A stretch of DNA of 64,000 bases. It comes from Siniperca chuatsi (Eukaryota; Chordata; Actinopteri; Centrarchiformes; Sinipercidae). The notes below the pieces were generated by a model that saw only the letters and a list, made by a program, of their open reading frames with translations, was not told the origin of the DNA and searched no databases. Positions within the stretch are counted from its first letter, which is position 1; every line of letters starts with the position of its first letter. A program made the position numbers and the translations under genes. Where the stretch lies: contig NC_058046.1 in NCBI RefSeq assembly GCF_020085105.1, positions 14,677,175 through 14,741,174 on the forward strand, given 5' to 3'. This document shows positions 890 to 44,180 of this stretch, one piece after another.

Positions 890-2613
890 AGAAAGGGAAA
901 GAAACAGGGGGAATACAGACAGCCAGAGAGAGAAGAGTAATTTTCCAGTGTTCTTATCTGTTGGATAAAGATATAAAGTAGTGGGACAGTTTACTGCAGA
1001 TTAAAGTGATTAGAGAACAGTATGACAAGGACAGAGGACATGGGCTGAGGGGGGCGTTCATTGTGCGCTTCAGATAAACAACCTGCTCATGGACAAGGGT
1101 GAAAACTAAACACATCAGGGACAACAACGTTACAGCGCAAGCGTACGTGTCCTGAGGCATGTTGGTTTGGAATCTCAATCATCTCAATACAAAATCTGAT
1201 CACTCTGTTTTTTCTGTCATTACATAGTGTATTGTGTGCAGGGCACAGTTGAAATGCAGTATTTGCCTTCATATAAACAGCAGAATAAATAAAACTTAGA
1301 CACAAAACTTTATAATTACTACATGGATAACTATGAACAACATAAGGTCAATGAGGGCAATGCAAAAATGAAAGTATGCATGCATCTACTCCGGTACTTT
1401 AAATGCAATGTTGATATGATACTCACACTGGTGTTGTGTGACCAGTCCCAGTAATGTGTTCACTCCCTCACCGTTATCTGAGGAAGAGCATTTACGGTCG
1501 AAACATTATTATGTCCATGTAGACTGAGAGTTGATTGACAGTTGCAGTTTGTGAAGTCATTATAATGTAAGGTGTTTCTGTTGTTTTGTCCATAGTATAA
1601 AGGGATCTCTCTTTCTGAGAGAAAAATCAGAGCAAAGCCAACAGTGCTGGGCTGACTGTGACATCATCACGTGTCTGAGTATTGGGTGGCCGATCCAAAC
1701 ACAGTGACGGCACATATCAACATCATCTCTGCCTGTGAGGATTGTCAGCGATGTGTCTGTGATGACAACATTTAAATGATACTATACCGCCCTCTACTGG
1801 AAGTGTACAACTCCTTCAGGAGACATACTTTAAAGGGTTTTATTTTTTCACTTACTGCTACTGGTATTTAGCTATGCACATAGTTTTGGTTTTGAGACAC
1901 TAGTTATGACATTTTAAAAGTTCAGCTACAACTTCTCTTTCCCCTAACTCTGGATAATCCACATATCTTGGTATGAACAGTTTCCATCTGAACTACTTTG
2001 TACCAAAAAAAAATAGCTCCTATGAAAACTGTTAATGGTGTATTTTGTGGAGTAATGGGGACAGTGATTATGGAAAAACAACTTTCTGTTGAATTTTTTA
2101 ATGTAATTTTTCAATGCTGTGAGCAATGTGGGTTTTTGTTTTAGCACATACTGATCACTGAACTGATGATGATGTCCACATCCACAGTGAGCACAGAATA
2201 AAGGCTATTCCAAATGAATAATTGCCCAGAGCCTGTTCAACAACTGCAGCTTCATTTCTTTTTAACCACACTAGCAGTGTGCATTTTTGGTAGTTTTTAT
2301 TATCCTCCCACAACAATTAGTCATTCACGTTTTCAGTGGTGACACTAAATGTAAAACAGAAAGAAAACCATTTCACACCCAAGGGAAATTACATTTACGA
2401 GTCAAACATCCCTGATTATTACTTATAAAAGGTGTGTTCAACATGAACCTTATATAATTCATGTTAATTTCCCTCAAGGTTTTTCCTCTTTTGAAATTGG
2501 TAGCACTGACCCAACTATACTTTGTAATAAAAACAGATTTACCATAACAGCAGTTAGATACAGTGTTGCCTCATTTTTCATGTTCTGGTAGCTGTAAAGA
2601 ATACAAACAAAGC

Positions 2614-2682
2614 AACATCTTTCGCAACATCTAAAGCTCTGACTGTCTCAATCAGAGTCTTTTAGATGTTGCGAAAGATGTT
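2614..2682. repeat. Inverted repeat, about 29-31 bp arms with a 9-nt loop
   Basis: The left arm 2614-2642 and right arm 2652-2682 are reverse complements apart from a two-base bulge. The loop is 2643-2651. The arm core reads AACATCTTTCGCAACATC. The stem is far better than chance and could be a folded transcript or a very small foldback element. No flanking target duplication was found. Confidence 0.75.
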
Positions 2683-3608
2683 GGTAGAGTATCAAAGCAA
2701 ATATTGATTAAGTTCAGAAGCAAAACACAAACACAGCATTCCTCACTTGCATGTTTATTTCAGCTCCAGTGTTACATACTGTAGCAGCATTATCACAATC
2801 ATTTCATATTTGCATGATCAAACTTCAACGCATTTCTGCTCTGGAGATGGCACTCAGCAAAAAATCATCCCAACTCCCATTTCAATCAGTTGTGCGTAAA
2901 TAGCATAAAAATATTTACATCATGGAAATCCCCACATAGAATATCAGCTCTCCTGCCTCCTTTAAAATGTAAGCATCTATTAGAAACACTACTTTGACAC
3001 ATTAAAAGTAGGACACAGGTGCGCAACACAGTTTGGGAATTATGATTCACTATTATGAATCAACACTACAAAGGAATGATGGAGGAGGGCAAGCTGTGTT
3101 GACCGCAAGTATAATGCGATAAATCAAAAGCTATTCTGACTGGCTTCATTTTACTTTTGTTTATCATATGATTAAGCTAAAATTAGAGTGGACTTGTCAG
3201 TGGATCCAACTGAAAAAAAAAAACTAACACAATGTGGGCAATAGACTAACCTATTGGTGATTAGACTTAGAATAAAAGATCTGTATGAATATATGCTAAT
3301 TAAGATGCTTTTATATTCAAGCTGAAAACATCTTATCCATTCATGTGAAATCCATATTGCATTCAATACAAGTAGTTTATAAAGTCTAAACCAGCTGATC
3401 AGTAAATAAAATGTAAAATGTTACAATGTAATTTTCCAAACATACTAAAAACTTTCCAGAATATTCATAATATCCACTTTAAACTGCTTTTGCTCAAGCA
3501 CTTTAGTAATCAATGAAACTTTTTGGAGGTGTAAATGAAAATGCTTAGGCAGCAAAGACTTTTCTGACTCCATCGAGCTCCAAACACATACAGAAAATAG
3601 AGCTAGAG

Positions 3609-3649
3609 CTTCAGTATCTCTCTCTCAGATATACTGAGAGATACTGAAG
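3609..3649. repeat. Inverted repeat, 14 bp perfect arms
   Basis: The arm CTTCAGTATCTCTC (3609-3622) pairs with GAGAGATACTGAAG (3636-3649) across a 13-base spacer that is itself partly self-complementary. Function unknown. It may be a structured piece of the slc25a37 3' UTR. Confidence 0.7.
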
Positions 3650-5368
3650 AATTCAAGTGATTAGGCAATGTAACGCCACTCCGCCAGGCAGCCGGCAGGC
3701 AAATAGAATCATAATTACAGGTACAAGCATAATGATTCTGTTGCTAAAGGGTTTGTGAGACCACTGGAAACTGACGAACTCTCTGAACTTGACCAAAGGG
3801 GGGTGGGGAACCAAAAAACAAAAAAAAAAATAAATAAAAAATTAAAAACAAATAAATCAGGCTGCTTGTTGGATTACAGCAATATCTGGAGGAATGTCTT
3901 GACTACTGAATGGAAAATAGTCAAGAGGCTGGAGAGAACAGTGAGCACACAGGAAACGTGTAACTACAACAGGATGAGTGAAAATAAAAGAAATGGCATT
4001 GCCTGCTTTCTAGCTGATTTGATCATGGTAACAAAGACTGCCCATGGTCATTGGTCAGTTATGTTTGTATCACAGAAAGTCTGCACTTTAAGTTTCAGCC
4101 AAACTTATACTAAAATAAAAATACTAAAATATTTTATATACAATCTACAACCTTGAGGTTCAAGGTCAATATGACACACGTAAAAATAAACTTAAATGCT
4201 AAACTTCACATCAGTACAAATGCACATGAAGGTTGAGATATGGCCACCATCCCAAGTAACAGCCTTATTTGATCCACCTTTGGATCTGCATAATGAAGTT
4301 TCTCAGAAATAGTCACCCTCAAAGTACATATTCATGTTTTTGAATACATATAAACAAGCTGCCTTCTTTCTGCAACAGGTATGATTCTTTAAATTAGACT
4401 ATTATTGTGCATGATTCAGGAGCATAGTAGTGCTGCACTTTAACAGGGCAAGTAACTGGACTAATGCGGCCTACACATCTTGATACTGAGTGATAAAGAG
4501 GGTCTCTGAGGGGGGAAAACGTGGTATTTTGCACTTAAAGCAAAAAACTAACAAAAAATAAAATTAAATTGCTGCCGACTGGTATTTGACCATTTGGTGT
4601 GGAGATAATTGAAAAAAACAAAACAGCATTCAGTTTAGTAAGTTCAGATTTGACAAATGTGACCAGTTATGACATAAAGAGCTACGATAAGATTTAATCT
4701 TATAACAGAACAGTGTGCTTCTTTGCAAGAACTTGGACCAAACAAAAATGAAATATGGAAATAAAGATTTTCTCTGTCAAAAACCAGAGAGCAAAAGAGG
4801 AAAAAAAGGTGAACCAGCATTTAATATTTATGAGGCACTTGGAAAGTGCAACTCTTCCATTTCTCCATCAAGTGGAAATAAAGAATAATAAAAGTTGTAT
4901 GTTTTTGTAATGTAATGTTTTTTTTATAAATACACAATGAAATAAAACAAACAAACAACATTGTGTTTCTTCCGCATCCATAAAATACAAGCCTCGGAAG
5001 CTAACAAAATAAATAAAAAATTCCAATATTAAGAACTATAAACACAGTTTGGAGAGTTGCAGTTGGTGCATTTGTGGAGAGGAAGAAAATTACCATTCAA
5101 CTCTTCTATCTATCCTTTTAAGAACAGTCATCTCTGTTGCATATCCTGGTTGTGCAACATTATCTTAAGTTGCACACACACACATACTTAGGTAACTGAA
5201 CAATAAAGAGTGCCATTCTCTGCCACTCCCCCACCATGATGTCTTCCCTGTGAGACAATAACTGATGTTATTTCCTCAAACAGCACACAGTCAGCTCACA
5301 CAGCTTCAGGTTAGAGTGTCCTTTCATCAGTTCCAGTCTGGGTGTGGTTTGTGCCAACACACTTTCAA

Positions 5369-30649: not shown

Positions 30650-41514
<10,865 letters not shown>

Positions 41515-42354
41515 CCCTACAATAGATCAGTCGGAGTCCAGCAGTAAGATACCTGCAGCAGCAACAGCGCAGCGAGTTTTGTCCTCGGGAAGCAACAGGA
41601 CGTACGACTCCACACTCTTAGAAGTAGTAGAGCCTCGAGGAACCTTTTGGGGTTCCTCACCATTGCCACTGTGGAGGAACCTTTTCAGTTCATAAAGGTT
41701 CTTTAAGAAACCGCTTTGTGGGGTTTGGGCTTCAATTTTGAACTCATTAAAATCATCATTATTATTAGACCTATTATTATTGATAGTCATATTTTTACTA
41801 TTAATATTATTATTGACATTGCACAAATGTTTTCTCAGACATTTTATTTAACCAGAATATAATGAGTGATAACACATAGAATTCAGTGTTGAAACAAGTT
41901 TATCTTTACAATATTTCATATTAAGTCAAGTGACTGAATATGATATGATCACATGATATAATAACAAAGCAACATTCATACAAATGTGTAATAATAACAT
42001 TAGAAGTAATAGTTCTAGTAGTAGTAATATGCATATAATTTGCGAAAATATATAATTCTCAAAAATACAAAATGTCTTAAATATTACATATAGAGACAAT
42101 AGAAGATGCTGATAAATATATTTTCATATTTCTCCTTTCTTTTTTTCAAATGGTTTCTCCACCACAATGCTTAAACTTCAGTTCAATAAAGACTGTACAG
42201 ATCAACACAAATACAACACTGGATGTTATTCGATGCTTAAACTAAAGACAATAATAGCTGCTGTTATTAATTAACTAACTAATAAATAGTTATTGTTGTT
42301 TGTGTGTGAGAGAGGGGTGAGGGAGGGGATAAGGGAGGAGATGCAGGAGACTGC

Positions 42355-43088
42355 TTAAGAAAACAGGTAGTCAGCCATCTTGATGACAGTGGGTGAAATC
42401 TTTCCATGAGGTCCATTTGATATGAGGTACTTTTCAATTAAATTTAGGGTGTTTTTGACCCTCCTGTGGATGTTAAAAACTAAATAATAAGACATCAATT
42501 TCCCCAGCCCCAAGGTGATGTCATCAACCTGATGACCCTCCAAGAAGGCGTTTCTTGTAATTACAAGGACAGGCGTTGGGACCTCTGGATTCTAGGGCAG
42601 TAAAACAACAACAACAATCTCAATGTTATGTTGCTCAGAATTACCTGGACAGTGTTGTGGCCCACTGACAATAACCCATGTGTCATTGTAACTACATAGG
42701 CATACCTTCTTGGGGTCCTCTTTGAATAAATGTTGGAGGAGTAACGTATCCAGGATCACTTGCAGACTTTGTGTTGGAAAGATAAATAAAAATTAACACA
42801 TAAAAGTGGCATGCCATCAAAAGCAACACCAAATTTACATATATCAAAACACAATTACAGAATTTGTAGCCAGAAATTGCCCATGTAATTGCTTCTATTA
42901 TTATTGGTATTAATATTATTATTAGGTATTAATATTACCTCTGCGTGACTCCTCTGCACATCCATTCTAAGCATCTTCATACATAGGGAAGAGGTCTAGC
43001 CCAGTTGCTCCTGCTGACATTCTTCCATTCCTGTCATGATGCTGTGATCAATGCCAACATCAAGCTGATCTTGCGATTCTGTGAGGAG
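42355..43088 (-). pseudogene. Exon-like fragments inside the CACTA element
   Basis: Three pieces on the gda strand have splice-like edges. About 42951-43088 includes SQDQLDVGIDHSIMTG and appears interrupted by a stop. 42706-42758 gives ILDTLLLQHLFKEDPKK and is followed by GT. 42355-42591 starts after AG and gives 78 residues containing TPVLVITRNAFLEGHQ and LMSYYLVFNIHRRVK, then a stop. The second and third pieces join in frame. They resemble, from memory, the C-terminal part of a multicopy fish family often labelled uncharacterised or SAM-domain-like. I cannot confirm this. They may be element-encoded or a second host capture. Confidence 0.45.
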
Positions 43089-43101
43089 CTGTGAACAACA
43101 C

Positions 43102-43164
43102 ACACACAAACACCACATAAGCAAAAGTTCACACATAACCAACAATCTTGACAAAATACAGCTA
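43102..43164. repeat. Direct repeat, left copy, bracketing the captured gda segment
   Basis: CACACAAACACCACAT, then TTCACACATAAC, then AATCTTGACAAAATACAGCT. The second copy follows the captured segment at about 43893-43950 in the same orientation. It ends some 17 bp before the gda-derived block starts. Confidence 0.8.
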
Positions 43165-43180
43165 CAATTTTTTAGCAGCA

Positions 43181-43478
43181 ACATATCTGCTGATTGGAGC
43201 ACTGTCAGGTTAACTGTAATAAAGTTACAAATTTCAATTACTGGGCTTAATCTGATGGATTACGGTCTCACATTGTATTCTTCACCACAGTCAAACAAGG
43301 CACACAGATCCATTATCACATTTTGAGCAGCTGATCTGCTTATAATAGCAACTACACACCCTGAATATGTCAGACAAGACAGTGCGGACATTTCTCTCTT
43401 TATGCACCACATCACTATGAATATAACATGGCTGTGTTAACAGATTTACATTACTAGAATTTTCCAATTTTTGTATTT
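43181..43478. repeat. Captured gda intron block 1
   Basis: Matches 35446-35743 over 298 bases with two substitutions and no gap. It comes from gda intron 4, downstream of exon 4 in the gene's direction. Confidence 0.97.
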
Positions 43479-43494
43479 ACTTTATTACCACACA

Positions 43495-43881
43495 CAAAAT
43501 GTGTGTGTGCGTGTGTGTGTGTGTGTGTGTGCATGTATGTTTATGTGTAGGTCTTACTTGCAATCTGGGCCAACAGGAGAGAGGCATCTGTATGTATAGT
43601 AGCAAAGTAACATGCAGTGGTTGCTCCGTTTCTCAGGGTCCTTTTCTGTGAAGCACAGGGATCATATTACAGGATTAAGAAAACATCCAAAAAATGTTTT
43701 CTTTTCTATATGTTTTTAAGCCACTGAATTGTTCACACCCTTCTGAAATCATAGGCTTTTACAATTATGCAATTGGTCCTAGGGCCAATTGGGAAATTCT
43801 GGCCTCCTTCATCTCCCCTTCTATCACATGGGTCCCGAGGCTTGCTATCGCCTCCGACCCCTCCACCGGCTATACCTGGGC
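43495..43881. repeat. Captured gda block 2 (GT tract, exon 4, LINE edge)
   Basis: Matches 36061-36445 with seven substitutions and a two-base length difference in the GT tract. It begins beside a CA/GT tract, which may mark the internal deletion junction, and ends inside the 5' part of the L2-like LINE. Confidence 0.97.
43558..43645 (-). pseudogene. Copy of gda exon 4 inside the transposon
   Basis: An 88-nt copy of gda exon 4 (36122-36209) in the same orientation as gda, with its acceptor AG and donor GTAAG unchanged. It differs at one base, turning the Thr of NGT into Ala (NGA) in the conserved NGTTTACYF stretch. The full 14-exon gda reading frame does not need it, so it is a duplicate that could at most be an alternative leader exon. 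Confidence 0.9.
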
Positions 43882-43892
43882 TATAACATCAA

Positions 43893-43950
43893 GCACACAA
43901 AGACCACATGTGTTTCACACATAACTAATAATCTTGACAGAATACAGCTA
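43893..43950. repeat. Direct repeat, right copy
   Basis: CACACAAAGACCACAT, then TTTCACACATAACTA, then AATCTTGACAGAATACAGCT. Roughly 85% like the left copy at 43102-43164, with a short gap. Confidence 0.8.
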
Positions 43951-44180
43951 TCAGCTTACAAATGTCAATTACAAACACTGCCCAGTATATAATTATAGTT
44001 ATATTTACCTTACCTGGCTTAATACTGGCTAACAGCTAAAACTGCTAGTGAAAAACTCTAAACCTCTAAACTGAGCTGTTAAAGGTTCCTCCAGGAACCC
44101 CTAAAGTAAGCGAGGTTCCTTGAATATCCCCAGAGTTCCTTGAGGCTCTCCTAATTCTAAGAGTGCACCTGACGGCAAAG

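Follow-up and report, generated by a model that had tools for sequence, protein, structure and literature searches.

A CACTA/EnSpm-like element at the 5' end of the gda gene of Siniperca chuatsi contains a copy of gda exon 4, probably acquired by repair in place

The window, as we call the whole stretch of 64 kb of Siniperca chuatsi DNA that was analysed, is part of a 33-Mb contig in an assembly of 718.8 Mb and harbours on its minus strand the gene gda, which codes for guanine deaminase. The detected exons span the positions 30668-41514, and the coding matches extend from exon 1, which has the ATG at 41514, to about 30668. When the exon pieces are joined they match the PDB entry 2UZ9, annotated as 'guanine deaminase', with an E-value of 3.2e-74; we take this entry to be the human enzyme. 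One segment of the gene, comprising intron 4, exon 4 and intron 3 (35445-36445, minus strand, with exon 4 at 36122-36209), is of particular importance here, because a second version of it is found outside the gene. The right end of this donor segment together with its flank (36354-36502) represents a dispersed sequence of about 140 bp, the relatives of which on C20, C5, C18 and C3 show 73-79% identity.

Upstream of gda, 98 bp away from the ATG, starts an element of 2,553 bp (41613-44165, no strand assigned) without a recognised transposase. Its termini are CACTCTTAGAA...TTCTAAGAGTG and belong to the CAC...GTG inverted type, and its 31-nt inverted arms (41613-41643 and 44135-44165, inverted repeat I1) are complementary at 90%. 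The hexamers GGAACC/GGTTCC occur 19 times in the 64-kb window, and the six that fall into the element are each located within 82 bp of one of its ends. Repeated motifs in subterminal position are a feature of the CACTA/EnSpm family, and in plants the target-site duplication of EnSpm elements is 3 bp long. The element in the window is flanked on the left (41611-41612) and on the right (44166-44167) by the dinucleotide CA, read from the sequence as a candidate for a target-site duplication of 2 bp. Flanks could be read in three copies including the one in the window: L014 has CA on both sides, while L009, the left end of which is damaged, has probably TA on both sides. According to the sections of the source used here, fungal EnSpm elements have duplications of 3 bp and the CMCT clade as a whole covers 2 to 5 bp, so that the 2-bp flank is inside the range of the clade but below the 3 bp of EnSpm (PMC12730594). 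We call the element CACTA/EnSpm-like, a label which is based on the ends, the 2-bp flank and the subterminal motifs.

An open frame of 78 codons within the element (42358-42591, minus strand) is probably the leftover of a protein formerly encoded by it. The frame has no match in Pfam; a sequence from the protein collection (P0001) is 52% identical to it, and tblastn finds damaged relatives at L012 (the same place as L007) and at L013. No transposase, which in an autonomous partner would be a DDE enzyme of the CMC type, was recognised by Pfam in seven open frames chosen from four of the six longer loci that were fetched near related sequence. A frame of 651 residues near the C5 end was considered as the autonomous partner and rejected, as it contains a TPH domain (P0002) and has the appearance of a host gene.

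Studying the interior of the element reveals two blocks of gda sequence. In the raw BLAST alignments the positions 43180-43487 correspond to 35445-35752 with 98.7% identity, and 43495-43881 correspond to 36061-36445 with 97.4% identity and one gap in a TG run. After trimming at the joints, block 1 (43180-43478, minus strand; donor 35445-35743) consists of a segment of intron 4 with two mismatches in 299 bases, and block 2 (43497-43881, minus strand; donor 36063-36445) consists of the end of intron 4, exon 4 and the start of intron 3 with eight mismatches in 383 bases. In total this gives 10 mismatches over 682 aligned bases (98.5% identity) and one 2-nt indel. Between the two blocks 308 bases of the donor (35753-36060) are absent from the copy. 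The copied exon 4 (43558-43645, minus strand, 88 bp) has both splice sites and the reading frame intact, and is in the same orientation as gda. It shows a single replacement, Thr to Ala, at a position where 2UZ9 has Thr. From edge to edge the distance between donor and copy is 6.7 kb, and both have the same orientation.

The initial annotation, which was made from the letters of the window, had described a 2.55-kb element with inverted ends and GGAACC motifs 98 bp before the gda start codon, had estimated the two blocks matching intron 4, exon 4 and intron 3 of gda at about 98.6% identity, and had concluded that the segment stems from gda, so that donor and recipient are one locus. The measured length, the arms, the hexamers near the ends, the distance between the ATG and the element start at 41613, the trimmed identity, the BLAST blocks and the nature of the donor as a guanine deaminase gene bear this description out.

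Chance similarity between the blocks and gda was rejected on the E-values of 1e-150 or lower in the genome searches, and a retrocopy of gda was rejected because introns are present in the copied segment. A later insertion of a transposable element into the donor as the origin of the 308-bp gap is not supported, as this stretch is without any other match among the best 40 of 132 candidates scored. It could further be supposed that a piece of gda was misplaced into the element during assembly, and a TG-rich stretch is indeed found at the joint between the blocks. We regard such an artefact as very improbable, because ten scattered differences, the filler at the joints and the repeated flanks are unlike a mis-join of one molecule, and both copies are within the one contig of 33 Mb.

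Another explanation is that an old capture or duplication was later homogenised by gene conversion between the donor and its direct copy. Conversion would be conceivable over the 7 kb that separate them, both differences of block 1 are near the left joint, and when the trimmed blocks are read end to end 287 consecutive bp are identical (269 of them in block 1), for which shuffling with random placement of the 10 differences gives a P of 0.045. However, the eight differences of block 2 are spread along the block, and the run test, itself post hoc, gives a marginal result on a run that crosses the joint. We consider gene conversion quite improbable.

A search of the genome with the whole element gave 61 matches from the best 40 of 230 candidates scored, and one with the donor segment gave 60 matches from the best 40 of 132 candidates scored; the counts for the element are lower bounds. 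Among these best-ranked candidates of both searches the gda segment proper is found only at the donor and in the element of the window, which settles for them the question, raised by the initial annotation, whether other copies of the element carry it. The other matches to the gda segment concern the TG run and the dispersed sequence of about 140 bp mentioned above for the right end of the donor. For the right end of the element there are seven matches including itself, those at C11, C8 and C2 with 90-91% identity and those at C20, C5 and C13 weaker, and relatives of its interior are, among the matches listed, at C8, C9, C20 and C3. That the element is CACTA/EnSpm-like, as had been proposed, and has related copies elsewhere agrees with its ends, its motifs and these right-end matches. 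The related element on C9 (L010, G000:C9:29218800-29224700, positions 1684-4319, minus) is seemingly split by several long open frames, which by eye resemble LINE endonuclease/reverse transcriptase.

For comparison 20 regions were fetched, of which 14 were used in an alignment of the breakpoint region (L009, L012, L013, L014, L015 and L028 were left out). In none of the 14 aligned loci is the gda segment present at the breakpoint region. Twelve of them are uninterrupted there, while L025 has an insert of 37 nt and L026 a short deletion.

On the left side of the gda insert the interior of the element (copy A, 43056-43164, no strand assigned) runs up to the breakpoint, and the last part of it, about 43098-43164 (TACAGCTA), can be aligned colinearly with the 14 loci. 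It is followed by a filler of about 15 nt (43165-43179, no strand assigned), which is colinear with neither the aligned relatives nor the donor. The joint between the two blocks (43479-43496, no strand assigned), where the 308 donor bases are absent, is either filler or altered donor sequence. On the right side the element resumes at the equivalent of 43056, as seen in the alignment of the two flanks, with copy B (43884-43950, no strand assigned), in which about 38 bp are missing relative to copy A. The element sequence equivalent to 43056-43164 is repeated in this way on both sides of the gda insert. In a core of 37 nt (43128-43164 versus 43914-43950) the two copies are 92% identical, with three of 37 positions differing, plus gaps.

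The repeats A and B are more diverged from each other than the gda insert is from its donor. Because of this, copy B would have been templated by another copy of the element, or A and B were already duplicated. This divergence counts against a simple repair from one template, which would give nearly identical copies A and B.

There is no clear microhomology at either joint of the gda insert, and a long junction microhomology, which was considered as well, was not established by comparing the joint sequences. The 37-nt insert of L025 at the breakpoint region (about 978-1120 of that locus), which is absent from the other 13 aligned loci, contains CAGCAACAT and may hint at a short overlap AACAT, in one locus out of 14. 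As to a templated origin of the junction fillers, exact 10-mers of the fillers recur at many places in the window; because they are so common, nothing is drawn from the match of TTTTTTAGCA at 35746.

BLAST aligns L018 with the element positions 1478-1639 at 68% identity, an alignment that extends about 70 bases into block 1. When the donor stretch 35445-35570 was compared with the 14 loci, using 300 shuffles for each, the match was reached by 1 shuffle for L025, 7 for L018, 10 for L010 and up to 166 for L027. The outcome of this shuffle test, which was post hoc, is too weak and uneven to support an ancient relationship of gda intron 4 to the interior of the element.

Concerning the relative age of element and insert, we counted as private changes those sites at which the window copy differs while its relatives agree (at least 75%, with two or more relatives). 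Four regions with 5, 7, 10 and 3 relatives were used, and these sets are small and chosen by hand. The private changes of the element amount to 24/451, 12/116, 7/154 and 3/80 by region, or pooled to 46 of 801 comparable sites (5.7%). The difference between insert and donor is 10 of 682 (1.5%), summed over both copies, and the contrast between the two pooled counts has a Fisher P of 1.4e-5; the right-end region alone (3/80) is not significant (P 0.15). Private changes of the relatives range from 2.7% to 17.6%, and the 3.7% to 10.3% of the window copy are ordinary for the family. On these counts the lineage of the element is several times more diverged than the insert. The contrast favours that the insertion came before the capture without proving it, because the private changes include the time which the lineage spent elsewhere before insertion.

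The wording of the initial annotation implies the opposite order, in which the element took up the segment and then moved beside the gene. Such a transduplication would be a capture of gda exon 4 during transposition elsewhere or on excision, followed by (re)insertion at the gda 5' end, for example by local hopping. The inverted ends and the identical 2-bp CA on each side agree with a transposition into the site, and capture and insertion could be nearly simultaneous if the source lineage has few sampled relatives. However, no second gda-bearing copy appeared among the best 40 of 230 and the best 40 of 132 candidates, and the element is more diverged than its insert. In addition, for an element that lands at random in 719 Mb the probability of coming to rest within 10 kb of the donor is, by simple arithmetic, about 3e-5, unless hopping is local. 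We hold transduplication to be unlikely, and a capture in place after insertion is favoured over the order implied before, without being proved, because the sole gda-bearing copy among the best-ranked candidates is only 6.7 kb away from its donor, has the same orientation and resides in older-looking element DNA.

The best reading in our opinion, and a probable one, is therefore that a resident element was broken and then repaired in place by copying gda from a distance of about 7 kb. The anatomy, the donor, the lack of a second gda-bearing copy among the scored candidates, the repeated element sequence at both joints and the divergence contrast are observed, whereas we infer in which order the events took place and by which pathway the repair proceeded. 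A CACTA/EnSpm-like element would have inserted at a distance of 98 bp before the start codon of gda, where it remained. Later a break or a stalled fork would have arisen inside the element, near 43164, and repair synthesis would have jumped along the chromosome to gda, about 7 kb off, without a change of orientation. There it would have copied exon 4 together with sequence of the adjoining introns 4 and 3, skipping 308 bp, and, as the anatomy suggests, gone back to the element at a point about 109 bp upstream of the one it had left, with another copy of the element or an older internal duplication as the return template. The product would be a single-copy Pack-TIR generated by transposition-independent gap filling.

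Plant Pack-CACTA elements contain pieces of several unrelated genes and are mobile, whereas the element described here contains one piece, derived from the adjacent gene, and is the single such copy found among the scored candidates. What it has in common with them, as judged from the soybean element Tgm-Express in the part of the publication considered, are CACTA ends around host gene fragments (PMC1947982). Turmoil-1 from C. elegans is likewise an animal transposable element with host coding sequence; in the description used here that sequence is part of the inverted terminal repeats, whereas the gda piece is in the interior (PMC2572040).

The closest parallel is found in the Pack-TIRs of Tan et al. 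(2021, Nat Commun 12:4280; PMC8277862), and the following statements refer to the sections of that paper considered here. The authors surveyed 100 animal genomes, 81 of them vertebrate, and describe 370 Pack-TIRs from 55 of the 100, with eight cases in zebrafish, so that the initial annotation, which was not aware of a well-described vertebrate case, is to be corrected in this respect. Among the single-copy Pack-TIRs 56.9% of the unique cases are within 15 kb of the parent, the breakpoints are skewed to the interior of the element, and in 91 of 97 primate cases the empty transposable element was already in place. Microhomology at one or more breakpoints was reported for 67.6% of the published Pack-TIRs, exonic capture for 13.4% of the cases, and 87.2% of the list are hAT or TcMariner elements. 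The locus described here resembles these cases in having host sequence in one copy of a TIR element, with element sequence on both sides and the parent within 15 kb on the same chromosome, as well as in the internal breakpoints and in a capture seemingly after insertion. At 98.5% the insert also lies above the survey's threshold of at least 90% identity to a unique parent, and the donor is the unique top match among the scored candidates. It differs in that the element is CACTA/EnSpm-like and not from the hAT/TcMariner majority, that a complete exon with both splice sites is placed upstream of the ATG of the donor gene itself, and that the joints show a 308-bp gap and repeated element sequence. 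Two filters of the survey have to be mentioned: one excludes transposable elements within 100 bp of the parental copy, and the other asks for a length ratio of captured to parental sequence of 80-120%, which is meant to keep only recent captures that have neither lost nor gained sequence since. As regards the first, the right part of the donor and its flank coincide with the dispersed sequence of about 140 bp. As regards the second, the whole insert with its 308-bp gap is outside the ratio (702/1001 bp, 70%), while each block alone is inside it. We take the length ratio as a screening filter that is not part of the definition of a Pack-TIR. In the literature considered we found no CACTA/EnSpm element of a fish with a host exon, and the eight zebrafish cases may include one (PMC8277862).

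A protein function of the exon 4 copy is not expected. As an 88-bp exon with normal-looking splice sites upstream of the ATG, it may at most alter the 5' UTR or prime recombination with exon 4. In the survey cited above an intron of the human gene H2BC15 has been copied into the 3' UTR of the same gene, and in the worm rpb-4 gene a Pack-TIR supplies an alternative 5' UTR, as given in the sections considered (PMC8277862). A more far-reaching scenario, which we think improbable, would be that splicing adds the copied exon to gda transcripts as an alternative 5' exon and that two templates served in the repair, gda in cis and another copy of the element in trans, giving a chimeric element. If this were true, gda would have placed a duplicate of one of its exons in its own leader by means of a transposon. 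The direct repeat over the gda 5' end and the first exons could make the locus prone to deletion or duplication.

The element would be a well-marked and roughly datable example of a DNA transposon serving as a local repair patch, in which an older element contains a recent copy of the adjoining gene. The gda case supports gap filling in place over mobile gene capture. Although this type of process has already been described in animals, a CACTA/EnSpm-like element with a whole exon would be a new entry in a list in which hAT and mariner elements predominate.
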